Shown here: positions 48,883 through 60,261 of the stretch, one piece after another
How positions within the stretch are numbered: the first letter of the stretch is position 1
Layout: each line of letters begins with the position of its first letter
Assembly: GCA_019243195.1 (NCBI GenBank)
Contig: JAFAUQ010000044.1
Location: forward strand, 1-64,000
Source: Hyphomicrobiales bacterium
Lineage (GTDB): Bacteria; Pseudomonadota; Alphaproteobacteria; Rhizobiales; Xanthobacteraceae
DNA length: 64,000 nucleotides
Reading direction: 5' to 3'
Notes under the pieces: model-generated
Seen by the model: the letters and a program-made list of their open reading frames with translations, nothing else
Told to the model about the DNA's origin: nothing
Database searches by the model: none
Position numbers and translations under genes: made by a program

Positions 48883-50400
48883 GTGACCGCGCCCCGCGTC
48901 GTCCGTCTGTCGCCGCAGGATAATGTCGTCATCGCCATCGATGCGGTTGCGCAAGCTGCGCAGGCCGCAAACGTAACCGCGCAACAACGCATCCCGCGCG
49001 GCCACAAGATGGCGATCGAGCCGATCGGCGAGGGCGCGCCGGTGAAGAAGTTCGGCCAGATCATCGGCTTTGCGTCGCGCGGCATCGGCCCGGGCGAATG
49101 GGTGCATGAGCATAACGTCACGCTCCATGACTTCGCGCGCGACTACCGCATCGGCGAGGACGCGAAGAACGATGAGGTGTTGCCGCCGGAATTGCGCGCG
49201 ACCTTCGAAGGTTACGTGCGTCCCGGCGGCCGCACCGGCACCCGCAACTACATCGGCGTGCTGACCTCGGTGAACTGCTCGGCGTCGGTCGCCAAATTCA
49301 TCGCCGAGGAGATCAACCGCTCGGGCCTGCTCGACGATTACCCCGGCATCGACGGCGCCGTCGCCTTCGTGCACGGCACCGGCTGCGGGCTTGCCGCCTA
49401 CGGCGAAGGTTTTGACGTGCTGCGCCGCACCCAATGGGGCTACGCCACTCATCCAAATCTTGGCGCCGCCGTTATGGTCGGGCTCGGCTGCGAGGTCTTC
49501 CAGATCGACCGAATGAAAGAGGAATACGGCCTCGTCGAAGGCGATCACTTCCAGACCATGACGATCCAGGCGACCGGCGGGACGAAGAAGACGGTGGCCG
49601 AGGGCGTCGAGCGCATCAAGGCGATGCTGCCGGTTGCGGCGCGCGCCAAGCGCGAGACCCGGCCGGCCTCGGAAATCGTGCTGGCGCTGCAATGCGGCGG
49701 CTCCGACGGCTACTCCGGCATCACCGCCAACCCGGCGCTCGGCGTCGCCTCAGACCTGCTGGTCAAACACGGCGGCACCGCGGTCCTTGCCGAGACGCCG
49801 GAAATCTACGGCGCCGAGCATCTGCTCACCCGCCGCGCGGTCAACCGGACGGTCGGCGAGAAGCTCGTCGAACGCATCAGATGGTGGGAGGAATACACCG
49901 CGCGCAACGGCGGCGAGATGAACAATAATCCCTCGCCCGGCAACAAGGCGGGCGGGCTCACGACCATTCTGGAGAAATCGCTCGGTGCCGCCGCCAAGGG
50001 TGGCGCCTCGAGCCTGCGCGCCGTCTATGAATATGCCGAGCCGGTGAAAGAAAAGGGCTTCGTGTTCATGGATACGCCCGGCTACGACCCGGTGTGCGCG
50101 ACCGGGCAGGTGGCCGGCGGCTCGAATGTCATGTGCTTCACCACGGGACGCGGCTCGGCGTTCGGCTGCAAGCCCACGCCCTCGATCAAGCTCGCCACCT
50201 CGACCGATATTTACAATCGCATGAACGATGACATGGATATCAATTGCGGCGATATTCTCGATGGCGTTCCGGTCGCCGAGAAGGGCGAGGAAATATTCGA
50301 ACGCGTGCTCAAGGTGGCCTCGGGCGAGCGCACCAAATCCGAGACGCTCGGCTACGGCGACCTCGAGTTCGTGCCCTGGCAGATCGGCGCGGTGATGTGA
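48883..50400 (+). CDS. UxaA-family altronate/galactarate dehydratase
   Basis: GYVRPGGRTGTRNYIGVLTSVNCSASVAKFI, VALQCGGSDGYSGITANPALG, GxxxxCFTTGRGSAFGCKPTPSIKLATS; GTG start. Confidence 0.88.
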   Translation: MTAPRVVRLSPQDNVVIAIDAVAQAAQAANVTAQQRIPRGHKMAIEPIGEGAPVKKFGQIIGFASRGIGPGEWVHEHNVTLHDFARDYRIGEDAKNDEVLPPELRATFEGYVRPGGRTGTRNYIGVLTSVNCSASVAKFIAEEINRSGLLDDYPGIDGAVAFVHGTGCGLAAYGEGFDVLRRTQWGYATHPNLGAAVMVGLGCEVFQIDRMKEEYGLVEGDHFQTMTIQATGGTKKTVAEGVERIKAMLPVAARAKRETRPASEIVLALQCGGSDGYSGITANPALGVASDLLVKHGGTAVLAETPEIYGAEHLLTRRAVNRTVGEKLVERIRWWEEYTARNGGEMNNNPSPGNKAGGLTTILEKSLGAAAKGGASSLRAVYEYAEPVKEKGFVFMDTPGYDPVCATGQVAGGSNVMCFTTGRGSAFGCKPTPSIKLATSTDIYNRMNDDMDINCGDILDGVPVAEKGEEIFERVLKVASGERTKSETLGYGDLEFVPWQIGAVM

Positions 50401-52460
50401 GATTCGCCCGCGCCGCGCTTGCGCTGGCCCTGCTGCTCGCCGCCCTTCCGGCGGGGGCCGAAGAGGGCATGTGGACGACCGACGCGTTTCCGGCCGACGC
50501 GGTCAACGCGGCCTACGGCTTCCGCCCCGACCAAGCGTGGCTCGATCACGTGCAGCTTTCTTCGCTGCGCCTTGCGCGCGGCTGCTCGGCGGCCTTCGTG
50601 TCGCCGTTCGGGCTGGTGCAGACCAACCACCACTGCGCCGCTTCCTGCATCGAGCAGCTCTCGACCGCCGGCCGCGATCTCATCGCGGCGGGTTTCTATG
50701 CGCGCGAAGCCAAGGACGAGGTGCGCTGTCCGGACGTCGAGGTGAACCAGCTCGTCGCCATCTCGGACGTGACGGCGCGCGTCAAACAGGCCGTCGCCGG
50801 CAAGGATGGACCGGATTTTGCCGCCGCCATGAAGGCAGTGCGCGCGGCGATCGCCAAGGAATGCTCCGGCAACGACGCGGCTTTGCGCTGCGATGGCGTC
50901 GACCTTTATCACGGCGGCATCTACCACCTTTATAAATACCGGCGCTATCAGGACGTACGCCTGGTGTTTGCACCGGAGAAGGCGATCGCCTTCTTCGGCG
51001 GCGATCCCGACAATTTCGAGTTCCCGCGCTACGATCTCGACGTCACCTATCTGCGCGTTTACGCCGACGGCGCGCCGCTCGACACCCGCGCCAATTATCT
51101 GCGCTACGCGGCCCACGACGTTGCGCCGGGCGATCTCGTCTTCACGTCGGGGCATCCGGGCTCGACCAATCGGCTCGACACGGTGGCTCAGCTTGCGTTC
51201 CGCCGCGATGTCAGCTTGCCGCGCGAGCTGTTCGAGCAGTCGGAGTTGCGCGGCATCCTTACCGAGTTCCGCACCAAGGGAGACGAGCAGGCGCGCATCG
51301 CGGCCGGCCTGCTGTTCGGCGTGGAGAATGGGCTCAAGGCGGGCAAGGGCCGGTTCGCGGCGCTCCTCGACGGCGCGGTGATGACGCGGCGGGCCGAGGC
51401 GGAGGCCAAGCTGCGCGCCGCGGTCGCCGCCGATCCGCAATTGCAGGCGCAGTACGGCGGCGCGTGGGACGGCATCGCCCGCGTGCTCCACCGCTATCGC
51501 GCGATGCGCGACCGCTACGTCTTCACCGAAGGCGGCGAGGGATTCCGCTCGCGCCCGTTCGGCCACGCCAAGCCGCTGGTGCGGCACGCGGCCGAACGCA
51601 CCAAGCCGGACGAGGAGCGTCTGCGCGAGCACACCGAGGCGAACTTTCCGATCTTGCGGCAGTCGATTCTGTCGCGCGCGCCGATCTACCCGGAACTCGA
51701 GAAGCTGACCCTGACCTTCTCGCTCACCAAGCTGCGCGAGACGCTCGGTCCCGACGATCCCTTCGTGCGCAAGGTGCTCGGGCAGAAATCGCCGGCGCAG
51801 CGGGCGGCCGAGCTGGTCGACGGGACGCGGCTCGCCGATCCCGAGGTACGCCGGCAGCTGCTCGACGGTGGCCAGGCGAGCATCGACGCCTCGGACGATC
51901 CCATGATCCTGTTGGCGCGGGAGCTCGATGGGGATTTGCGCGCCTTGCGCAAGGACTATGAGGACAATGTCGAGGCCCCGCTGACCAAATATTCCGGCGA
52001 AATCGCGGCCGCGAGCTTCAAGGTCTACGGCACGTCAACCTACCCGGACGCGACCTTCACGCTTCGTCTCTCCTACGGCGCCGTCAAAGGCTACCGCGAC
52101 GGCGGCAAGGATATCGCGCCGCTTACCCGCATCGGCGGCGCCTTCGATCGCGCCACCGGGCTCGATCCGTTCCGCCTGCCGGACTCCTGGATCACCGCCC
52201 GCGCGAGCCTCGACCCCGACACGCCGTTCGACTTCGCTACCACCAACGACGTCGTCGGCGGCAACTCCGGCTCGCCGGTGATCGACCGGGCCGGCGAGGT
52301 GGTCGGCGTGATTTTCGACGGCAATATCCATTCGCTCGGCGCTGGTTTCGGCTACGAGGCGGAAAAGAGCCGGGCGATCGCGGTCGCCGTGGGGGCGCTG
52401 CGGGAGACGCTCGCCAAGATCTATCGTGCCGACCGCCTCATCGAGGAACTGAGGCAGTGA
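50397..52460 (+). CDS. S46 family (dipeptidyl-peptidase 7/11-like) serine peptidase
   Basis: GLVQTNHHCAASCIEQLS and VVGGNSGSPVIDRAGEVVGVIFDGNIHSLG; overlaps upstream stop. Confidence 0.88.
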   Translation: MRFARAALALALLLAALPAGAEEGMWTTDAFPADAVNAAYGFRPDQAWLDHVQLSSLRLARGCSAAFVSPFGLVQTNHHCAASCIEQLSTAGRDLIAAGFYAREAKDEVRCPDVEVNQLVAISDVTARVKQAVAGKDGPDFAAAMKAVRAAIAKECSGNDAALRCDGVDLYHGGIYHLYKYRRYQDVRLVFAPEKAIAFFGGDPDNFEFPRYDLDVTYLRVYADGAPLDTRANYLRYAAHDVAPGDLVFTSGHPGSTNRLDTVAQLAFRRDVSLPRELFEQSELRGILTEFRTKGDEQARIAAGLLFGVENGLKAGKGRFAALLDGAVMTRRAEAEAKLRAAVAADPQLQAQYGGAWDGIARVLHRYRAMRDRYVFTEGGEGFRSRPFGHAKPLVRHAAERTKPDEERLREHTEANFPILRQSILSRAPIYPELEKLTLTFSLTKLRETLGPDDPFVRKVLGQKSPAQRAAELVDGTRLADPEVRRQLLDGGQASIDASDDPMILLARELDGDLRALRKDYEDNVEAPLTKYSGEIAAASFKVYGTSTYPDATFTLRLSYGAVKGYRDGGKDIAPLTRIGGAFDRATGLDPFRLPDSWITARASLDPDTPFDFATTNDVVGGNSGSPVIDRAGEVVGVIFDGNIHSLGAGFGYEAEKSRAIAVAVGALRETLAKIYRADRLIEELRQ

Positions 52461-53117
52461 TCCGGCAGGAAACAATCGAAATGCTTGCGCCGTCTCGGGC
52501 GCAGCAAGCTTGCGCGCGGCGCGGCCGGTTAATCCATTAGTTTCCATTATCACTTCTTCACCAAATTCAATTTGACTTTCTGCCGCGGCGAAATCATATC
52601 TATCGCGGAATTTGCCGGACGTGCGTCCGCGCCGGCCGGCAATGATGAGGAGTCCGATGCGCCACATAGGCACCAATAGCGCGACAAATACCGCCGCCCG
52701 GTCGTTGACCCGACCGAGCACGTGGCGTCGCGCGCGCATGACCGGCCTATCGCGCTTCGATCGACCCGAACCAGGGTCACGACAACCGGATTAACCCGGC
52801 GGCGGGCAAGACCCTCCGCCGACAGGCAGGAGGGCCAAAGGTCCCGCAGAATTCCCCAGCAACGTCCGGCTTCGCGTCGACGCGCGCGTCATGCGCCCGC
52901 TGCCGCGTATCTTAAAGGTCGGCTCCCTCTCTGCCTCGCCAGTTTCTTGCTTGCGCTCTGCGCGGGCGTGATTGCTCGCGCCCGAGACTTGGACCCGTGC
53001 GGGTCCCGCTGTTTGACATTGTGAACGTCCAGAATTGGCCAGCGGCGCGCGTCGCGCCCTGTTCGCAGCTCGCTCTGCCCGCAGGCAAAGCGGCGCCCTG
53101 GCCATTTGTTCATATTC

Positions 53118-53194
53118 CGCTCCGTTAGCTCAGTTGGCAGAGCAGCCCCCCTGTAAGGGGCAGGTCGCGGGTTCGAATCCATGCACGGAGCACC
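53118..53194 (+). tRNA. tRNA-Thr-like (TGT), loop CCTGTAA (C33), irregular T-stem
   Basis: GCTCCGT/ACGGAGC acceptor, GCCCC-CCTGTAA-GGGGC anticodon arm, encoded ACCA. Confidence 0.75.
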
Positions 53195-53282
53195 ATTTCA
53201 GTAATCAGTGATCAGTAATCAGTGACCAAGGCGCGATTTATGGTCACTGGCGACTGATCACTGATCACTGATCACCGATTAT

Positions 53283-53360
53283 GCGCCAGTAGCCCAATCG
53301 GCAGGAGGCAGCTCTCTCAGAAAGAGTTCAGTGCAGGTTCGAATCCTGCTTGGCGCACCA
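53283..53360 (+). tRNA. tRNA-Leu-like (CAG) with short variable loop
   Basis: GCGCCAG/TTGGCGC, GCTCT-CTCAGAA-AGAGT, GCAGG-TTCGAAT-CCTGC, ACCA. Confidence 0.75.
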
Positions 53361-53445
53361 TTCAGTGACCAGTTATCAGTGATCAGTAATCAGAACGGCG
53401 GAACTTCGATCTGATCACTGATTGCTGGTCAATGATTACTGATCC

Positions 53446-53520
53446 GTCCCGTGACGCATCTGGCGAGGCGGTCCGCCTGTCGAGCGGATGAGAGGGATTC
53501 GATTTCCCTACGGGGCGCCA
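53446..53520 (+). tRNA. tRNA-Asp (GTC)
   Basis: GTCCCGT/ACGGGGC, TCCGC-CTGTCGA-GCGGA, AGGGA-TTCGATT-TCCCT, GCCA. Confidence 0.8.
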
Positions 53521-53622
53521 TCCTGCTTCGCGCTGCGCGCTTCGCAGGAGGACTGTGGTAGAGGCTCGCGGGATGTAATTGCTCATCCGTCCTCCGACGT
53601 CTGTCCTCGGTCATCTGCTTCA

Positions 53623-53708
53623 GGAAGGCTCCGCTGAATGGTCGGCGACTGGTCCCGAAAACCAGGGTGACCGCGAGGTCAGGGGTTCGATTCCTCAGCC
53701 TTCCGCCA
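53623..53708 (+). tRNA. tRNA-Ser (CGA), class II, loop CCCGAAA (C33)
   Basis: GGAAGGC/GCCTTCC, CTGGT-CCCGAAA-ACCAG, long variable arm, TTCGATT, GCCA. Confidence 0.85.
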
Positions 53709-53821
53709 ATTCAGTGAACAGTGACCGGTAGTCAGTGATCAGAAACGTAAATGTTTTCCGATAGCGGACACTTATAACCGACCGCTGGTCACTGATCACT
53801 GATCACTGATCACTGACTAAC

Positions 53822-53897
53822 GCCTGGGAAGCTAATCTGGTGAAAGCGCCGCGCTGAAGTCGCGGAGAGGTGGGCTCGAAACCTACCCCAGGCACCA
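53822..53897 (+). tRNA. tRNA-Phe (GAA), T-loop CTCGAAA
   Basis: GCCTGGG/CCCAGGC, CCGCG-CTGAAGT-CGCGG, ACCA. Confidence 0.85.
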
Positions 53898-53977
53898 ACT
53901 CCAGGGATCGGTTATCAGTGATCAGGAATCACAATTCGCGTGAACTTTCTGATGCCTGATCCCTGACTTCTGAACAC

Positions 53978-54049
53978 GGGACACGAGCAAGGGCTCAGAC
54001 CGGCCTTGCAAGCTGGTCGGGCGCGGAGCGTTACCGCGGTGTTCCACCA
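53978..54049 (+). tRNA. tRNA-Ala-like (TGC), T-loop AGCGTTA, compact D-arm
   Basis: GGGACAC/GTGTTCC, CCGGC-CTTGCAA-GCTGG, CGCGG-AGCGTTA-CCGCG, ACCA. Confidence 0.7.
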
Positions 54050-54050
54050 T

Positions 54051-54129
54051 TCCGGTCAAAGCCGAGCAGGTGCACGGCGCCGCCTGTTAAGCGGAGAATA
54101 GGCAGGTTCGATTCCTGCGACCGGAGCCA
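54051..54129 (+). tRNA. tRNA-Asn (GTT)
   Basis: TCCGGTC/GACCGGA, CCGC-CTGTTAA-GCGG, GCAGG-TTCGATT-CCTGC, GCCA. Confidence 0.85.
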
Positions 54130-54168
54130 ATTTCATGATCCCTGATTCCTGATGCCAGATACCTGAAT

Positions 54169-54246
54169 CCATCCATAGCTCAGTCGGAGCAGAGCACCCG
54201 GTTGCGGACCGGGAGGTCGCAGGTTCGAGTCCTGCTGGATGGTCCA
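54169..54246 (+). tRNA. tRNA-Arg (GCG)
   Basis: CCATCCA/TGGATGG, CCCGG-TTGCGGA-CCGGG, GCAGG-TTCGAGT-CCTGC, TCCA. Confidence 0.85.
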
Positions 54247-54263
54247 ATTCCGAAATAGGCTTT

Positions 54264-54340
54264 CAGGGCGTAGCGCAGTCCGGCAGCGCTCCTGGCTTGG
54301 AACCAGGAGGTCGTAGGTTCGAATCCTACCGCCCTGACCA
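54264..54340 (+). tRNA. tRNA-Pro (TGG)
   Basis: CAGGGCG/CGCCCTG, CCTGG-CTTGGAA-CCAGG, GTAGG-TTCGAAT-CCTAC, ACCA. Confidence 0.92.
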
Positions 54341-54429
54341 CTTCTCGCGACCAAACAACGGGAGGCTCTCATGCGACGCCATGACTTCGACGAACTGCCG
54401 TCCTTTCGAAGTCTCGCGCAAGCGGAGGC

Positions 54430-54616
54430 GTGGGCTATGCCTCGGAAACGCAAGTGCGGCGCGGCGACCGCGTCGTGCACGGCGACAAGGAGCTGATCGA
54501 GAAGCTCGGGCGCAACGACCTGTGCCCGTGCGGTTCTGGACGGCGCTTTCAAGAAATGCTGCCTGCGCTCCGGCCGCTTCGACGGCAACGAACGCAATTA
54601 CTATGTCCGTGATTAG
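54430..54616 (+). pseudogene. SEC-C-motif mini-protein with apparent frameshift, inside the tRNA array
   Basis: [20 protein letters not shown](R) then +1 frame [23 protein letters not shown]. Confidence 0.6.
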
Positions 54617-54664
54617 AGCATGATCCCGAAAAGTGGGAACCGATTTTCGGAAAAGATCATGCTC
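54616..54664. repeat. GAGCATGATC palindrome (family G)
   Basis: GAGCATGATCCCGAAAAGTGGGAACCGATTTTCGGAAAAGATCATGCTC. Confidence 0.9.
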
Positions 54665-54712
54665 CAACAATAAATCACGCAACGGACTTCGGCCCGTTGC
54701 GTATTCGCACCC

Positions 54713-54798
54713 GGAGAGTTGGCCGAGCGGCAAGGCATCGCGGTGCTAACGCGACGAGACCGAAAGGTCGGGCAGGTTCGACTCCTGCACTCTCCCCC
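54713..54798 (+). tRNA. tRNA-Ser (GCT), class II, no encoded CCA
   Basis: GGAGAGT/ACTCTCC, TCGCG-GTGCTAA-CGCGA, variable arm CGAGACCGAAAGGTCG, GCAGG-TTCGACT-CCTGC. Confidence 0.88.
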
Positions 54799-54803
54799 GC
54801 GTC

Positions 54804-54880
54804 GCTCCGTTCGCCAAGCGGCCAAAGGCATCGGTCCCACACACCGACATTCCGGGGTTCAAATCCTCGACGGAGCACCA
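54804..54880 (+). tRNA. tRNA-Val (CAC), loop CCCACAC (C33)
   Basis: GCTCCGT/ACGGAGC, TCGGT-CCCACAC-ACCGA, CGGGG-TTCAAAT-CCTCG, ACCA. Confidence 0.8.
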
Positions 54881-54892
54881 TCATTCGCATGT

Positions 54893-56465
54893 CCGACCCG
54901 GACACATGGGTGACAGAACGTACCTAAGACATGGGTGACAACCTCGTGCCGATCGGGCTGTCGAGAAGTTGCAAGGCGTTGTGCTCCACGGGTTGAGCGT
55001 CAGCTGACGCGAAGGCGTCGGGTGCGTGGTGACGCATTCTTGGCATGATCATTATTGCTCGGCGCGCGCTTTCGCCGTCAATCCCGCGCGCCAAGAGGCG
55101 CGCCCCTTCGGTCGTTGGGGATTGACGGCTCAGCGCGACGAGCAAGTTGCGACCATGCCAACAGTGCCAGATAGCGCGTCCCCGGTCAGAGCGCTGGCGT
55201 CGTACCGGAGACATCGGAGACAAGCTTTGGACCGAACGGGTTATCGACGGTCTGCAAGGTTCTTTGCTCCAGATCGAAGTAGCCGAGATCGTATTGCATG
55301 AAGCTGACGAGCCAAATGCCTTCGTCGACTTCCTTGATGCCGAGCCGTTGACCAGCCAGGACGGTCGAGATGTTGATCTTCTTGCGATGCAAGCAGAGGC
55401 GCCCGCAGGCGGTGACGAGCACGTCGCGGTCGTGGAAGGGATAGGAGAGCTCGGGCAGGCCGTCGTAGCGACGCGGTGAAGTGGTATACAGTTGCGCCGG
55501 ACACTTCATGTCGAGCGCTTCGTGCGGTCTTTCGACGTTGAACTCCTGCACGAAGGCGTCGAAGCGAGCCTGCTGTTGCAAGATGTTCGATCCTGACGGC
55601 CGGGTCGCCTCCTTCTTGAGCGTGAGATGCATGCGCTCGTGCCGGCCATTCTGCTGTGGACAGCCAGGTTTGATGCGCTCGATCGCGATGCCGAGGCGAA
55701 GCCACCAGACCGAGAGCTTTGAGAGACCGAACAAGCCGTTTGGGCTCGCAAAAGGCACGCCGTTGTCGGAGCGGATGGACAGCGGCAGCCCTCGTTCGGC
55801 AAACAGGCGTTCGAAGGCGGTAAAGGCGAGGTCCTCGCGTGTCGACTCGAGTGCTTCACACATGAGCAGGAAGCGCGAAGCCTGATCAGTGACGGTGAGC
55901 TGATAGCAATAACGTGCATTGCCGAGCTTGAACTCACCTTTGAAGTCGGCACACCACAGATCATTGGGCGCGGCGCCTGGCGAGAGCGGGGTCCCCTGCG
56001 CACGATGGCGCCGGCCCGCGGCGCGCTTGACCAGACCATGGCGGTCGAGAACCGCGTGGATGGTGCTCTTGGCTGGAAGGCGAACGTCGCCTTTGAGCCG
56101 CCGAAGCAGAAGCTCGCGGATCTTGCGTGCTCCCCAATGCGGCTTCTCCCCTTTCAGGCGGACGATCAAGTTTTCGAGCTGCTGCGGCAGCTGATTGGCG
56201 TATCGCACCGGCCGTCGCGAACGGTCGGTAAGGGCCTCAAGACCATGTTCCTTGTAGCGATCGAATATCTTGTATCCGGTTTTCCGGGATATCCCGAAAT
56301 CCCGGCACACGTCCGTCATTGCCTCGCCATCCAACAATCGGCCGACAAAGCGTAGGCGCTCTTCCATCACCGAACTCGCTTTCCACGGCATCAACACCTC
56401 CCGCCAAAACGCGAAAAGTGTTACCCATGTGTCCGGTACGAAGTGTCACCCATGTCTCGGGTCGG
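54893..56465 (-). mobile_element. IS481-family-like insertion sequence
   Basis: Inverted ends CCGACCCGGACACATGGGTGACA... / ...TGTCACCCATGTCTCGGGTCGG flanking a transposase ORF. Confidence 0.75.
55186..56397 (-). CDS. IS481-family transposase (intact-looking)
   Basis: N-terminal HTH and rve core: DLWCADFKGEFKLGNARYCYQLTVTDQASRFLLMCEAL, SIRSDNGVPFASPNGLFGLSKLSVWWLRLGIAIERIKPGCPQQNGRHERMHLTLKKEA. Confidence 0.92.
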   Translation of the reverse strand: MLMPWKASSVMEERLRFVGRLLDGEAMTDVCRDFGISRKTGYKIFDRYKEHGLEALTDRSRRPVRYANQLPQQLENLIVRLKGEKPHWGARKIRELLLRRLKGDVRLPAKSTIHAVLDRHGLVKRAAGRRHRAQGTPLSPGAAPNDLWCADFKGEFKLGNARYCYQLTVTDQASRFLLMCEALESTREDLAFTAFERLFAERGLPLSIRSDNGVPFASPNGLFGLSKLSVWWLRLGIAIERIKPGCPQQNGRHERMHLTLKKEATRPSGSNILQQQARFDAFVQEFNVERPHEALDMKCPAQLYTTSPRRYDGLPELSYPFHDRDVLVTACGRLCLHRKKINISTVLAGQRLGIKEVDEGIWLVSFMQYDLGYFDLEQRTLQTVDNPFGPKLVSDVSGTTPAL

Positions 56466-56468
56466 TCA

Positions 56469-56543
56469 GCACGTGAGCCGGAAAAGCGACGGCGGCGGCC
56501 GATAACCGTCTGACAGGAGGGGCAGTACCTCCCGCGTGCACCA
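56469..56543 (+). tRNA. tRNA-Ile-like (GAT), loop CCGATAA (C33), T-loop GGCAGTA
   Basis: GCACGTG/CGCGTGC, GGCGG-CCGATAA-CCGTC, GGAGG-GGCAGTA-CCTCC, ACCA. Confidence 0.65.
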
Positions 56544-56585
56544 GACAAGGAGCAAACAAATGCCTGCGCACAAACGCGGGGTCAT

Positions 56586-56669
56586 GGACCCCGAGCGTAA
56601 AGCCTGGATCGGCCGGGCACGGGACTTTTAACCCCGCCGCAGGAGGTTCGAGCCCTCCGGGGTTCACCA
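56586..56669 (+). tRNA. tRNA-Lys-like (TTT), expanded D region
   Basis: GGACCCC/GGGGTTC, CGGGA-CTTTTAA-CCCCG, GGAGG-TTCGAGC-CCTCC, ACCA. Confidence 0.6.
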
Positions 56670-56741
56670 CCCTGCTTCGCGCTGTGCGCTTCGCAGGATT
56701 GCGTTTACCCCTCCGAAGCCTTGGCGGAGGAGGGCACCATT

Positions 56742-56817
56742 GGACCACTAGCTCAATGGGCAGAGCGGCCGGCTCTTAACCGGCAGGTTCGGGGATCGTG
56801 GCCCCGGTGGTCCTCCA
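56742..56817 (+). tRNA. tRNA-Lys (CTT), T-loop ATCGTGG
   Basis: GGACCAC/GTGGTCC, GCCGG-CTCTTAA-CCGGC, CGGGG-ATCGTGG-CCCCG, TCCA. Confidence 0.8.
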
Positions 56818-56853
56818 TCCTGCTTCGCGCGACGCGCTGCGCAGGACTATTGA

Positions 56854-56930
56854 TGCAGGCAGATCGGTTAGGGATCCGCGCGGTCTCATAAGCCGCGTTG
56901 AGCCGGGTGCGACCCCCGGGCCTGCAACCA
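56854..56930 (+). tRNA. tRNA-Met/Ile2-like (CAT), T-loop TGCGACC
   Basis: TGCAGGC/GCCTGCA, GCGGT-CTCATAA-GCCGC, CCGGG-TGCGACC-CCCGG, ACCA. Confidence 0.7.
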
Positions 56931-56932
56931 AT

Positions 56933-57004
56933 GGGGAACGAGCAAGGGCTCAGGTTCGCCTTGCAAGCAAGCCGTGCGGGGAGCGTTACCCCGGTTCTCC
57001 ACCA
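56933..57004 (+). tRNA. tRNA-Ala-like (TGC), second copy, T-loop AGCGTTA
   Basis: GGGGAAC/GTTCTCC, loop CTTGCAA, CGGGG-AGCGTTA-CCCCG, ACCA. Confidence 0.65.
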
Positions 57005-57008
57005 ATTT

Positions 57009-57088
57009 TCCGGTCAAAGCCAAGCAAGGTGCAAGGCGCTGCCTGTTAAGCAGAGATTAGCCCGGTTCGATTCCGGGGGCCGGAGCCA
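57009..57088 (+). tRNA. tRNA-Asn (GTT), second copy
   Basis: TCCGGTC/GGCCGGA, CTGC-CTGTTAA-GCAG, CCCGG-TTCGATT-CCGGG, GCCA. Confidence 0.8.
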
Positions 57089-57089
57089 C

Positions 57090-57164
57090 GGGAGCATCGT
57101 CTAACGGGAAGGATACGACCCTCTCAAGGTCGTGACGCGGGATCGTGGCCCGCTGCCCCTGCCA
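57090..57164 (+). tRNA. tRNA-Glu (CTC), T-loop ATCGTGG
   Basis: GGGAGCA/TGCCCCT (one mismatch), CGACC-CTCTCAA-GGTCG, GCGGG-ATCGTGG-CCCGC, GCCA. Confidence 0.75.
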
Positions 57165-57166
57165 AC

Positions 57167-57215
57167 GAGCATGATCCCGAAAAGTGGGAACCGGTTTTCG
57201 GAAAAGATCATGCTC
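57167..57215. repeat. GAGCATGATC palindrome (family G)
   Basis: GAGCATGATCCCGAAAAGTGGGAACCGGTTTTCGGAAAAGATCATGCTC. Confidence 0.9.
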
Positions 57216-57222
57216 CAAGAAC

Positions 57223-57305
57223 ACGCACGTAGCCGACGCCGGCTTCGAACCGGTGATCCGTAAACGGAGCTGAAAATGGGGGTTCGAGTCCTCCCGTGCG
57301 TGCCA
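57223..57305 (+). tRNA. tRNA-Arg-like (TCG), apparently D-arm-less with long variable region
   Basis: ACGCACG/CGTGCGT, GCCGG-CTTCGAA-CCGGT, GGGGG-TTCGAGT-CCTCC, GCCA. Confidence 0.5.
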
Positions 57306-57306
57306 T

Positions 57307-57470
57307 CAGTGCCGCGAACCCGAAGTTCGCACGGCAATTGCCGCGAGTCCGATTGCGAACTTCGGGTTCAAAGCGGCACTAGAATCATAGGTTTGCTAGT
57401 GTCCTTCGATTCCGAAGTTCGCTTCCGAACGTGCTGCAAACTCAGGCGAACTTCGGAATCGGGACACTAG
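57307..57470 (+). repeat. Family B double-hairpin repeat inside the tRNA array
   Basis: CAGTGCCGCGAACCCGAAGTTCGC..GCGAACTTCGGGTTCAAAGCGGCACTAG + CTAGTGTCCTTCGATTCCGAAGTTCGC..GCGAACTTCGGAATCGGGACACTAG. Confidence 0.85.
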
Positions 57471-57471
57471 A

Positions 57472-57546
57472 TTGGCATTTCGTTCAACGGCAGGACACCT
57501 GACTCTGACTCAGGGGATCATGGTTCGAATCCATGGAGGCCAACCA
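57472..57546 (+). tRNA. tRNA-Gln (CTG)
   Basis: TTGGC../..GGCCAA, CCTGA-CTCTGAC-TCAGG, CATGG-TTCGAAT-CCATG, CCA. Confidence 0.75.
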
Positions 57547-57708
57547 ATGGCACATGTGAGAAAAGGCATGCTCGTTTCGTCGCCGCAATGGCGGAAACAC
57601 TTGCGCGATTGGAAACGCATTTTCTGGAAGAAACATCGCAAGGCGGAAAAGGCCGCAGTTCGGCGCAGTGGCGAAACGGGAGCGCGGCGGTTTGCAAAAC
57701 CGCTTTGA
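57547..57708 (+). CDS. 53-aa very basic mini-protein, begins immediately after tRNA-Gln CCA
   Basis: MAHVRKGMLVSSPQWRKHLRDWKRIFWKKHRKAEKAAVRRSGETGARRFAKPL. Confidence 0.5.
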   Translation: MAHVRKGMLVSSPQWRKHLRDWKRIFWKKHRKAEKAAVRRSGETGARRFAKPL

Positions 57709-57795
57709 GCATGATCCCGAAAAGTGGGGACCGGTTTTCGGAAAAAGATCATGCTCCAAGAATATGAGCCGGCGCGACACCGGCGTGCGCCTCTA
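57662..57795 (+). tRNA. tRNA-Cys-like (GCA) split in the variable region by a family G palindrome
   Basis: GGCGCA/TGCGCC, GCGGT-TTGCAAA-ACCGC, then palindrome 57707-57757, then GCCGG-CGCGACA-CCGGC. Confidence 0.55.
57707..57757. repeat. GAGCATGATC palindrome (family G) within tRNA-Cys
   Basis: GAGCATGATCCCGAAAAGTGGGGACCGGTTTTCGGAAAAAGATCATGCTC. Confidence 0.9.
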
Positions 57796-57871
57796 GCCTC
57801 CGTAGCTCAGCGGACAGAGCGGCCGGCTTCTACCCGGCAGGTCGGGCGTTCAAATCGTCCCGGGGGAACCA
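57796..57871 (+). tRNA. tRNA-Arg (TCT)
   Basis: GCCTCCG/CGGGGGA, GCCGG-CTTCTAC-CCGGC, GGGCG-TTCAAAT-CGTCC, ACCA. Confidence 0.8.
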
Positions 57872-57888
57872 CATTGTTCCCGGCATAC

Positions 57889-57962
57889 ACCAGCGTGATG
57901 TAACGGCAGCATGGCGGCTTCCAACTCCGCTCGTCAGGGTTCAAATCCTTGCGCTGGTGCCA
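57889..57962 (+). tRNA. tRNA-Gly-like (TCC), enlarged anticodon loop
   Basis: ACCAGCG/CGCTGGT, GCGG-CTTCCAACT-CCGC, CAGGG-TTCAAAT-CCTTG, GCCA. Confidence 0.65.
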
Positions 57963-57987
57963 ACCTAACGGCCTCTCCCAATTTCAT

Positions 57988-58062
57988 GCGGGTATAGCTC
58001 AGAGGCAGAGCCGCGGTCTTCCAAACCGTCGGTCGCGGGTTCGATCCCCGCTGCCCGCTCCA
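57988..58062 (+). tRNA. tRNA-Gly (TCC), canonical
   Basis: GCGGGTA/TGCCCGC, CTTCCAA, GCGGG-TTCGATC-CCCGC, TCCA. Confidence 0.93.
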
Positions 58063-58066
58063 ATCG

Positions 58067-58134
58067 GAGCATTTTCCGGAAAAAGCCTGCCCCGCACTCG
58101 ATGCGGGGTGGGCACCGGTTTTCCGTAGAAAATG
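58067..58134. repeat. Variant palindrome related to family G with nested CCCCGCACTCGATGCGGGG hairpin
   Basis: GAGCATTTTCCGGAAAAAGCCTGCCCCGCACTCGATGCGGGGTGGGCACCGGTTTTCCGTAGAAAATGC. Confidence 0.7.
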
Positions 58135-58149
58135 CGACCAAATAGATTC

Positions 58150-58226
58150 GCCGCCTTCGTCTAGCGGAACAGGACCCCGGTCCTTCAAACCGGTCGACGC
58201 GGGTTCGAATCCCGCAGGCGGCGCCA
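58150..58226 (+). tRNA. tRNA-Glu (TTC), loop CCTTCAA (C33)
   Basis: GCCGCCT/AGGCGGC, CCGGT-CCTTCAA-ACCGG, GCGGG-TTCGAAT-CCCGC, GCCA. Confidence 0.9.
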
Positions 58227-58234
58227 CTTTTGCT

Positions 58235-58308
58235 GGAGCATGATCTTTTCCGAAAACCGGTACCCACTCCGCATCGAGTGCGGGGCAGGCTTTTTCGGGA
58301 TCATGCGC
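58235..58308. repeat. Family G palindrome with internal GCATCGAGTGC insert
   Basis: GAGCATGATCTTTTCCGAAAACCGGTACCCACTCCGCATCGAGTGCGGGGCAGGCTTTTTCGGGATCATGCG. Confidence 0.75.
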
Positions 58309-58311
58309 TAT

Positions 58312-58387
58312 TCGGGGGTGGCGCAACTGGCGGCGCGGCCGACTTTGAATCGGCAGGTTGAAGGTTCGAGCCCTTCCCCCCGAGCCA
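58312..58387 (+). tRNA. tRNA-Gln (TTG)
   Basis: TCGGGGG/CCCCCGA, GCCGA-CTTTGAA-TCGGC, GAAGG-TTCGAGC-CCTTC, GCCA. Confidence 0.92.
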
Positions 58388-58470
58388 TCCCACCAGTAAT
58401 CAGTGACCAGTAACCAGTGACCAAGCAGGCCGCAAGTTCGGTCGTGTGATCGCTGATCACTGATTACTGG

Positions 58471-60261
58471 TTACTGATCGAGCAGTTTACGTATGGCGTC
58501 GGAGAGCGCCTGCGGGTTGCCGGGCGGCACAATCGTGAGTCCCGTTTGCGGAGCAACACCGCAGGCCGCAGTGGCGATTACCGGCACGCCGGCCGCGAGC
58601 GCCGCGAGCAGATGGCGCGGCCGCTCCTCGACATAGGCCGGCTGCACCACGGCGGCGACGCGATCGGGCCAGCCGGTGTTGCCGGGGCGATGGACGCGCA
58701 CGCCGTCCCAGAACCTCGCCCCCTCGAGTTCGCTGCCGAGGAGCATCACATCGAGGTCAAGCTCGCGGGCGATCTGGCGCAGCTCGAATGCGCCCTTGCG
58801 GGCGACGGTCGGCCCGGGGAAGGCGATGCAGCGCGGCGTGGCTTTCTCGCGCGGGCTCGGCGAAACCGGCGGGAGCTGCCACGCGAGCCGCAGGGCCTTA
58901 TCAGCAAACAAAGCCGCGAGTTCGGCATGCGGCGTTACAATGCGTTCCGCGCGGGCGAGCGCCTCGCGCTCGGCGTTGAGGAGCCAATCGGGCGCGCGGA
59001 AATCGGCGAGGCTGGCGCGGTCCGGATGCGCGGCAGCGGCGGCGTCGAGGCGCGCGTGCAGCAGATGCATGGGCATGCGCGTGAGCAGCACCGTGAAGCG
59101 GCGGCCGCCGAGCTGCCCTTCGCGCCAGAGGAACGGCAGCAGCGATTGCGCGACGCAGACTTCGGTCACGTCCGGCGTGAGCGCGCGCGCGAGGCGACGC
59201 GCGAGACGGGCGGTTCCGCGCAGCTCGGCGGCGCGGCGCGCCGGACCCTGCTGCTTGAGCCGGCGCAGTGCGAGCGCACGGGCTGCGGCGGCAAGCGGTG
59301 CCGTCACGACCTGCGCAAAGCGGCGGGTGTCCCACTCGTGGCGCGCAAGGCCGAAGCGCGCTCCGTCGAGCGCAATGCCAAGTACGTCACCGGCGTCGCG
59401 GGTGTCGCGCACGTAATCGCGGAACTCGGGCCAGCATTCGTCGAGGAGATAGGCGGTGCGGCCCAGCGTTTCGGGCGCCGTGCGCTCATGGCGGAAGCAC
59501 GCCGTCTGCTCGCACGTGCCGCAGGTTGCCGCTGATGGCGGCGCGAGCGCGGCGATGGTTTGCTCGGGCGCTGACGTTAGCTGCGCGGACACGCGAGTGC
59601 GGAAACGGACGATTAGTTCGTCGTTCGTGAGCCGCGCTTCCATCAGCAGCGGCACGCCGGCGCGAAAGCGCAGATCCACGTAGTTCCACGCGACGGTCGC
59701 GTCACGCCCGAGCGCCGCCGCGGAGCCCGGCACGCGGCGCGAGTGGGCATGGCGCTCGACGATCTCGCAACCGCTCGCGAGCGCCGCCTGATAGAACGCG
59801 TTGGAAAGCTGGCAGAGCCCGCCGCCGGTCGCCGGCACCAGGCATCCTTGTTGCAGCATGCGGCCGGTGACGAAGCCGCGGCGGCGACTGGGCCGGCCGA
59901 GCTGGCGCCAAAAGCTGAAGGTTTCGCCTTGCGGCACGAGGAGGCGGTCGAAGGCCCGGACGGCGCGCCGCAGGTTATGCACCTTGCCGAGCTGGAAGCG
60001 GCGCTCGGCGGGCCGGCCGTCGGACCACAGCGGCGAGCGCGCTTCCGCGAGAGTCACGGAAAAATCCGCACGGTCGATGTGCGCGAGCTGAGGTGCTCCG
60101 TCGATGAGATTGCGCACCTTCCGGCGGGCGCGATGCGCCATGACCTTGGCCCGGAAAATTGCCGCCGAAAGACGCGTGGGGACGGCCGTCGTGGACGGCG
60201 GCAGCGGCAGGCCTAGCGTGCGGGCTTGGGCAGAAGGCATGGGGTTTCTCGTGCTCCCCAT
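58471..60261 (-). CDS. VanW-family domain fused to a glycosyltransferase-like C-terminal domain
   Basis: LLVPQGETFSFWRQLGRPSRRRGFVTGRMLQQGCLVPATGGGLCQLSNAFYQAALASGCEIVERHAHS; C-term ERPRHLLAALAAGVPVIATAACG. Confidence 0.8.
   Translation of the reverse strand: MGSTRNPMPSAQARTLGLPLPPSTTAVPTRLSAAIFRAKVMAHRARRKVRNLIDGAPQLAHIDRADFSVTLAEARSPLWSDGRPAERRFQLGKVHNLRRAVRAFDRLLVPQGETFSFWRQLGRPSRRRGFVTGRMLQQGCLVPATGGGLCQLSNAFYQAALASGCEIVERHAHSRRVPGSAAALGRDATVAWNYVDLRFRAGVPLLMEARLTNDELIVRFRTRVSAQLTSAPEQTIAALAPPSAATCGTCEQTACFRHERTAPETLGRTAYLLDECWPEFRDYVRDTRDAGDVLGIALDGARFGLARHEWDTRRFAQVVTAPLAAAARALALRRLKQQGPARRAAELRGTARLARRLARALTPDVTEVCVAQSLLPFLWREGQLGGRRFTVLLTRMPMHLLHARLDAAAAAHPDRASLADFRAPDWLLNAEREALARAERIVTPHAELAALFADKALRLAWQLPPVSPSPREKATPRCIAFPGPTVARKGAFELRQIARELDLDVMLLGSELEGARFWDGVRVHRPGNTGWPDRVAAVVQPAYVEERPRHLLAALAAGVPVIATAACGVAPQTGLTIVPPGNPQALSDAIRKLLDQ

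Follow-up and report, generated by a model that had tools for sequence, protein, structure and literature searches.

Known tRNA arrays and the locus under study

Arrays of transfer RNA (tRNA) genes are already known, as are the HNH genes found in them and the divergence of their tRNAs from chromosomal ones. The trn operon of Anabaena comprises 26 tRNAs on plasmid pCC7120delta, is controlled by TrcR and is induced by translation stress, and the HNH gene all8564 belongs to the same TrcR regulon (PMC10272220). Mycobacterial tRNA arrays are likewise associated with HNH genes (PMC5966550, PMC12803027). Amongst phages, the tRNAs of mycobacteriophages show anticodon-loop changes (PMC10264068), and phage tRNAs have been found to counter PtuAB and PrrC (PMC11555353). 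It has long been asked why tRNA arrays occur in phages and in some bacteria. Here, we describe an array of 26 tRNA genes in a 64,000 nt stretch of DNA (hereafter, the window) from a Hyphomicrobiales bacterium of the family Xanthobacteraceae (assembly GCA_019243195.1, contig JAFAUQ010000044.1, positions 1 to 64,000). We favour the view, with a probability of roughly 0.58, that the array is an accessory tRNA operon capable of horizontal movement, of the same general kind as the described arrays and Anabaena trn, now chromosomal, which would serve as a backup against tRNA-depleting stress. The array is of particular interest as it is chromosomal, belongs to a family with many closed genomes, has a fixed gene order in common with a tailed phage and includes an unusual tRNA-Ala whose structure is backed by strong covariation.

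A dense array of 26 tRNA units

The array spans positions 53119 to 58387 (~5.3 kb), with every unit on the forward strand and in the order shown in Table 1. ARAGORN called 20 tRNAs, all on this strand and inside the array, and none elsewhere in the window; no tRNA was called in any of 100 dinucleotide-preserving shuffles of the array sequence. The Rfam tRNA model placed 15 units above its cut-off in the window scan, and ~18 in local and own-genome scans. The six units that ARAGORN missed, Ser(CGA), both Ala(TGC) units, Ile(GAT), Lys(TTT) and Cys(GCA), were recovered on the basis of stem pairing and homologs in other arrays. Nearly all units form complete or near-complete stems (acceptor 6–7 of 7 pairs, anticodon stem 4–5 of 5, T stem 4–5 of 5); the T stem of Thr(TGT) scores 1 of 5 only through a bulge, and the same bulge is present in the L197 and L202 homologs.

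These findings bear out the original prediction of 26 co-directional tRNA-like folds, most of which were not rejected by the covariance model. The predicted anticodons hold for 25 units. The 23rd unit, at 57889, had been taken for Gly and is in fact Trp(CCA): it carries A1:U72 and G73 as in canonical tRNA-Trp, ARAGORN calls it Trp, and its nearest array relative is the Trp unit of L198. With this reassignment the array covers 18 amino acids instead of the 17 first counted, and the list of amino acids without a unit shrinks from His, Trp and Tyr to His and Tyr. The 3′ CCA, said to be encoded by nearly all units, is present in 24 of 26, the exceptions being Ser(GCT), which ends in CCCG, and Cys, which ends in TCTA. 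The spacers, many of which had been put at 1–40 bp, range from 0 to 372 bp, with a single spacer of 1588 bp that contains an insertion sequence (IS).

The window makes up most of a 67.7 kb contig in a metagenome-assembled genome (MAG) of 4.47 Mb that is 66% complete. Approximately 24 canonical tRNAs are scattered outside the array in this genome, and at least 11 units of the array have a counterpart amongst them (Thr TGT, Asp GTC, Ser CGA, Phe, Val CAC, Lys TTT, Lys CTT, Met, Cys, Glu TTC and Gln TTG). Of the 74 tRNA matches in the closed 9.1 Mb genome of the relative G376, ~25 lie in its own array and the remaining ~49 are scattered. Because canonical tRNAs with the same anticodons are scattered elsewhere, both in the source genome and in G376, the array is an accessory tRNA set, as had been proposed, and for those 11 or more units it does not hold the only copies of the genome.

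Divergent tRNAs held by compensatory changes

The array tRNAs belong largely to lineages of their own. In a comparison of each window unit with 202 array tRNAs from nine relatives and 52 canonical tRNAs (source genome and G376), 22 of the 26 units were nearest to an array tRNA of another genome rather than to any of these canonical tRNAs. The four others are Ile, Lys(TTT), Gln(CTG) and Gly; array homologs of Lys(TTT) do exist, most of which ARAGORN overlooks. Homologs of the Ser(CGA) unit were found in Ancylobacter (L039/L045, with compensatory changes), in Hyphomonadaceae (L046), in Phycisphaerales (L050, 13 tRNAs) and in the trn operon of the Nostoc PCC 7120 delta-plasmid. The D-arm motif of Leu(CAG) recurs in plasmid arrays of Nostoc, Bifidobacterium and Paenarthrobacter and in at least 120 viral-contig stretches, and 107 of 121 matches fall within a tRNA-Leu with a short variable arm. 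Two other search results were set aside: a DNA search of relatives with the whole array matched mainly the IS, interspersed repeats and canonical tRNAs, and weak Rfam matches to a Brucella small RNA and to tRNA-Sec corresponded to an interspersed palindrome and to deviant tRNA units, not to separate RNAs.

The array tRNAs are deviant, yet are held by compensatory changes. In the Ala units the two-base 8/9 linker is missing, and these units combine a 4 bp D stem closed by a 4 nt loop with a 7 bp anticodon stem, a 3 nt variable loop and, often, the T loop AGCGTTA. Ten copies of this form, taken from bacterial genomes and viral contigs, share a length of 72 nt and align without gaps; 99.1% of the cells in the alignment pair, 18 of the 23 pairs show double-sided changes (mean of 9.5 in shuffles), and the covariation score is 0.713 compared with 0.181 after shuffling. 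G3:U70, the alanine identity pair, is invariant across all ten copies. Alanyl-tRNA synthetase recognises mainly the acceptor stem, which would explain why the body of this tRNA is free to change. A covariance model of the form gave 82–95 bits for array copies, including two outside the model (G121, 92 bits; L203, 86 bits), and 39.6 bits for canonical tRNA-Ala, for which one copy of the source genome was searched. A viral contig fetched by a different motif, L132, scored 62 bits; scores of ~40 to 60 bits do not separate cleanly, and a class-wide search, in which 12 candidates were scored per genome, yields no reliable negative. In the tRNA-Leu with a short variable loop, 19 of 20 pairs carry double-sided changes.

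Further differences from the host tRNAs lie in the anticodon and T loops. Position 33 is almost always U in tRNAs, yet it is C in five of the 26 window units and in 14 of the 201 array units from relatives, and in none of the 52 canonical tRNAs. Loci fetched by a C33-containing pattern were not used to argue that C33 is conserved; L198 and L199 had been obtained independently of that pattern. Eight window units have a T loop that deviates from TTCRA, and no such T loop occurs amongst 50 canonical tRNAs. The discriminator base is the same as that of the host in 20 of 25 comparable units. The Ala covariance model and the Leu D-arm motif provide markers for arrays that are under-called by ARAGORN and Rfam.

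A gene order common to relatives and a tailed phage

The Leu motif was present in 10 of 399 Xanthobacteraceae genomes, including the source genome. The other nine all carry arrays, with 11–30 ARAGORN tRNAs each, and a tenth, G121, was uncovered via the leader element described below, so that the proposed search for syntenic arrays yielded ten other genomes of the family. Such arrays had been considered atypical of alphaproteobacterial chromosomes; at a frequency of at least 11 of 399 they are indeed rare, but they form a family of their own there, and relatives carry them in closed, single-contig genomes of 7–9 Mb.

Common anticodons are collinear in nearly all pairs of nine arrays (23/23 for L198–L199, 22/22 for L203–L204). 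The window array consists of two partial passes through this order. The first, from Thr to Ser(GCT), shares 7/7 with L198 and likewise with L199, and the second, from Val to Gln(TTG), shares 12/13 with L204; both exceed shuffled orders (p ~0.001 or less). As the nearest array to the first segment is that of G118 (Leu 91%, Phe 88%), whereas for parts of the second it is the arrays of genus g25, probably Bradyrhizobium, that are nearest (Met 91%), the window array is likely to be a mosaic formed by fusion of two arrays.

The family order is also kept in two viral contigs, L267 (14/15 shared, p 0.002) and L263 (12/13, p 0.002). Genes for the large subunit of terminase, for a portal protein and for structural and tail proteins are present on the 69 kb contig of L267, and the L267 array can be aligned to window positions 53822–54130 (E 8e-35) and 56928–57165 (E 2e-28). 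These similarities make an origin shared with mobile elements, including a tailed phage, well supported. A search of known phages with the Ala–Asn block gave no match. A single ancestral order for all arrays was considered and rejected, since little or no conservation was seen outside the family (Nostoc, mycobacterial, Bifidobacterium, Paenarthrobacter and most viral arrays).

An HNH protein of 178–188 amino acids is encoded in the arrays of eight relatives (one cut by a contig end), and is homologous to the HNH protein beside Nostoc trn (E 1e-21) and to those of Mycolicibacterium and Paenarthrobacter arrays.

We also noted other genes associated with these arrays. The array of G400 contains the gene of a Ro60/TROVE and vWA protein (L202:13797-15455), and such a gene also lies beside the viral array of the same order (L263:6694-8271). 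A conserved 66 amino acid protein (MARNSTTKTGLENRTRE...) without a Pfam match precedes the arrays of L200, L201, L203 and L204, and could be a regulator. In the viral arrays L268 and L271, a tRNA with the anticodon CTA is present and may act as an amber suppressor.

A leader with a putative BoxA-like element

The first tRNA is preceded by the element GCTGTTTGACATTGTGAACGTCCAGAA, a hairpin and the sequence TTTGT, in that order. The element, followed by a hairpin of different stem sequence, also precedes the arrays of G118, G226 and G121. Across 150 family genomes, the 27-mer was found only at arrays when up to two mismatches were allowed. Its core, GCTGTTTGACA..GTGA, is present in the 16S ribosomal RNA (rRNA) leaders of G376, G425, G410 and G118, and each of five g25 genomes has a single copy of the core. 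The similarity suggests a BoxA-like antitermination element of the rRNA-operon type, which would suit a long untranslated transcript; a role as a promoter -35 element is the alternative. The core also occurs in intergenic regions that have neither a tRNA nor a 16S gene, at L251 (G121:C200) and at ~10 sites in G226, and one copy away from arrays is accompanied by a similar GGCGCC hairpin.

Table 1. Features of the tRNA array region, with positions in the window
Feature	Position	Strand	Evidence and remarks
BoxA-like leader element GCTGTTTGACATTGTGAACGTCCAGAA (putative)	53008..53034	+	Conserved ahead of G118, G226 and G121 arrays; core common to 16S rRNA leaders
Leader hairpin, then TTTGT	53036..53105	+	Fold z -3.1; layout kept, stem sequence different in G118, G226 and G121
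tRNA-Thr(TGT), C33, bulged T stem	53119..53195	+	ARAGORN, stems
tRNA-Leu(CAG), short variable loop	53283..53360	+	ARAGORN, D-arm motif, covariation
tRNA-Asp(GTC)	53446..53520	+	ARAGORN, stems
tRNA-Ser(CGA), C33	53623..53708	+	Stems; homologs in Ancylobacter, Phycisphaerales and Nostoc trn
tRNA-Phe(GAA), T loop CTCGAAA	53822..53897	+	ARAGORN, stems
tRNA-Ala(TGC), no 8/9 linker, 4 nt D loop, T loop AGCGTTA	53978..54049	+	Alignment, covariance model
tRNA-Asn(GTT)	54051..54129	+	ARAGORN, stems
tRNA-Arg(GCG)	54169..54246	+	ARAGORN, Rfam, stems
tRNA-Pro(TGG)	54264..54340	+	ARAGORN, Rfam, stems
Broken reading frame with SEC-C motif	54371..54617	+	SEC-C match only once frames are joined
tRNA-Ser(GCT), 3′ end CCCG in place of GCCA	54713..54799	+	ARAGORN, stems
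tRNA-Val(CAC), C33	54804..54880	+	ARAGORN, stems
IS481-family IS, ends approximate; transposase 55186-56397	54890..56468	-	Pfam HTH, rve, LZ_Tnp_IS481; same end point in copies of other genomes
tRNA-Ile(GAT), C33, T loop GGCAGTA, directly 3′ of IS	56469..56543	+	Stems
tRNA-Lys(TTT)	56586..56669	+	Homologs at equivalent place in relatives
tRNA-Lys(CTT), T loop ATCGTGG	56742..56817	+	ARAGORN, stems
tRNA-Met(CAT), T loop TGCGACC	56854..56930	+	ARAGORN, homologs, stems
Second tRNA-Ala(TGC), no 8/9 linker	56933..57004	+	Alignment, covariance model
Second tRNA-Asn(GTT)	57009..57088	+	ARAGORN, stems
tRNA-Glu(CTC), T loop ATCGTGG	57090..57164	+	ARAGORN, stems
Aberrant unit 19, Arg TCG anticodon, 23 nt variable region, no D arm	57223..57305	+	ARAGORN: Thr GGT; agrees with L199 Arg(ACG) in acceptor and T arm
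tRNA-Gln(CTG)	57473..57546	+	ARAGORN, stems
tRNA-Cys(GCA), variable loop split by palindrome ~57707-57762, 3′ end TCTA	57662..57795	+	Uninterrupted in relatives
tRNA-Arg(TCT)	57796..57871	+	ARAGORN, stems
tRNA-Trp(CCA), 4 bp anticodon stem	57889..57962	+	ARAGORN, stems, A1:U72, G73
tRNA-Gly(TCC)	57988..58062	+	ARAGORN, Rfam, stems
tRNA-Glu(TTC), C33	58150..58226	+	ARAGORN, stems
tRNA-Gln(TTG)	58312..58387	+	ARAGORN, Rfam, stems

Possible function of the array and alternative explanations

In the model that we favour, antitermination at the leader would allow a single long untranslated transcript to run through the whole array. The tRNAs would be processed and charged by host enzymes; charging is proposed because the acceptor identity nucleotides are mostly kept. 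Because they differ from host tRNAs in position 33, in the variable arm and in the D and T loops, they may escape tRNA-cutting toxins or defence nucleases. Expressed under stress, the array tRNAs would replace host tRNAs that had been cut or depleted, and translation would continue. The beneficiary would at first have been a phage or plasmid, and later a host that retained the operon. We also put forward, as a tentative extension, that the arrays make up a coherent 'shadow' set that moves between phages and bacteria, a parallel decoding set unrecognised by tRNA-targeting enzymes. In this proposal the tRNAs would have been rebuilt without the 8/9 linker, U33, the TTCRA T loop and the long Leu arm, with charging identity kept and an rRNA-like antiterminated leader.

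A number of observations weigh against the model of a mobile stress backup. The affinity to mobile elements put forward in the original prediction is supported by the same-order array in a tailed phage and by tRNA lineages common to viral contigs and plasmids, but not by the surroundings of the array: no integrase, phage or plasmid gene was found amongst the flanking proteins examined (ABC transport, galactarate dehydratase, peptidase S46, VanW and branched-chain permease), and relatives carry such arrays in closed genomes. An empty site could not be demonstrated, as the anchor proteins, peptidase S46 (50295–52460) and a VanW-glycosyltransferase (58471–60261), have no full-length homologs in 60 relatives. 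The assignment of the leader element to BoxA is kept provisional because ~10 further intergenic copies of the core lie away from arrays in G226 and because the g25 array leaders lack it. In addition, the window copy of the array may be failing: an IS481-family element lies between Val and Ile, tRNA-Cys is split by a palindrome that is absent from the Cys units of relatives, Ser(GCT) has no CCA, and the HNH gene is absent. The palindrome (GAGCATGATCCCGAAAAG...) occurs genome-wide, with several copies in the array spacers; the copy that splits tRNA-Cys sits precisely within the variable loop and might fold into a giant variable arm. The SEC-C match was obtained by reading across a frame change, in a reading frame that is broken. 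Some function has likely been lost in this copy, though most units are intact. Separately, a second repeat family (CAGTGATCAGTAATCAGTGA type) fills the spacers at ~53197–53275, 53364–53443, 53714–53816, 53900–53975 and 58396–58480.

It is unlikely that the array is a decaying remnant that arrived by phage or plasmid and is now non-functional in the source genome. The damage listed above would fit such a history, as would spacers that are longer than in most relatives, but most units have full stems, 24 of 26 retain CCA, and the leader is intact and conserved. A host stress operon is an unlikely but serious alternative; the array would then be kept repressed and be induced by translation stress, as Anabaena trn is under TrcR, and would have no particular connection with phages or nuclease evasion. 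This alternative draws support from the chromosomal location, the order retained across the family, the rRNA-like leader and the precedent of Anabaena trn, whose 26 tRNAs are induced by translation-targeting antibiotics and aid survival (PMC10272220). Against it stand the tailed phage, which has the same order and the same kind of deviant units, and the patchy distribution (at least 11 of 399 genomes).

The classical idea for phage tRNAs is that they supplement codons that are rare in the host and used by the mobile element. We regard this as very improbable here, given that 18 amino acids are covered and host anticodons are repeated; the idea is unsupported for mycobacteriophages too (PMC10264068). 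That the window contains the main tRNA genes of the organism for these anticodons can hardly be the case. Canonical Asn, Ile, Gly, Trp and Tyr tRNAs were not found in the assembled part of the 66%-complete MAG, which would fit a housekeeping locus, but the canonical counterparts of at least 11 units, the ~49 scattered tRNAs of G376 and the non-canonical type of the array sequences all argue against it.

Comparison with known systems

The array displays features of a tRNA array unit, with a high density of co-directional genes that are redundant with, and divergent from, the chromosomal set. An HNH endonuclease gene, which such units often but not always contain, is absent from the window. In a literature search that was incomplete, we found no description of the Xanthobacteraceae array family, of the order shared with phage, of the linker-less tRNA-Ala or of the rRNA-like leader, and a search for Bradyrhizobium tRNA clusters returned nothing. 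Non-canonical bacterial tRNAs offer partial parallels: their cloverleaf is also non-standard, the 4 nt D loop resembles that of tRNA-Sec (PMC7609411), and 4 bp anticodon stems (PMC13092985) are matched by the Trp unit. The window Ala units differ in the missing 8/9 linker, the 7 bp anticodon stem and the 3 nt variable loop, and the linker-less form is not described in those passages of the review (PMC7609411) that were searched.

The Nostoc/Anabaena PCC 7120 trn operon resembles the window array in its ~26 co-directional tRNA genes that duplicate the chromosomal set, its tRNA-Leu with a short variable loop, its homologous Ser unit and its adjacent HNH gene, which is related to the HNH genes of the arrays of the window's relatives. 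In contrast, trn is cyanobacterial, plasmid-borne and has TrcR as its known regulator, the window has no HNH gene, and the longest order common to both is no better than in shuffles. Defence-evading phage tRNAs (PMC10264068, PMC11555353) share anticodon-loop changes with the phage-type tRNAs of the window, and a phage has the same array order; the window set, however, is chromosomal and near-complete. Mycobacterial array units, which occur in mycobacteria and in their plasmids and phages (PMC5966550, PMC12803027), are also dense, redundant sets that diverge from chromosomal copies, are associated with HNH genes and are considered to have an anti-defence function. They have other gene orders, whereas the array described here belongs to a chromosomal Xanthobacteraceae family with a fixed order, a linker-less tRNA-Ala and a BoxA-like leader.

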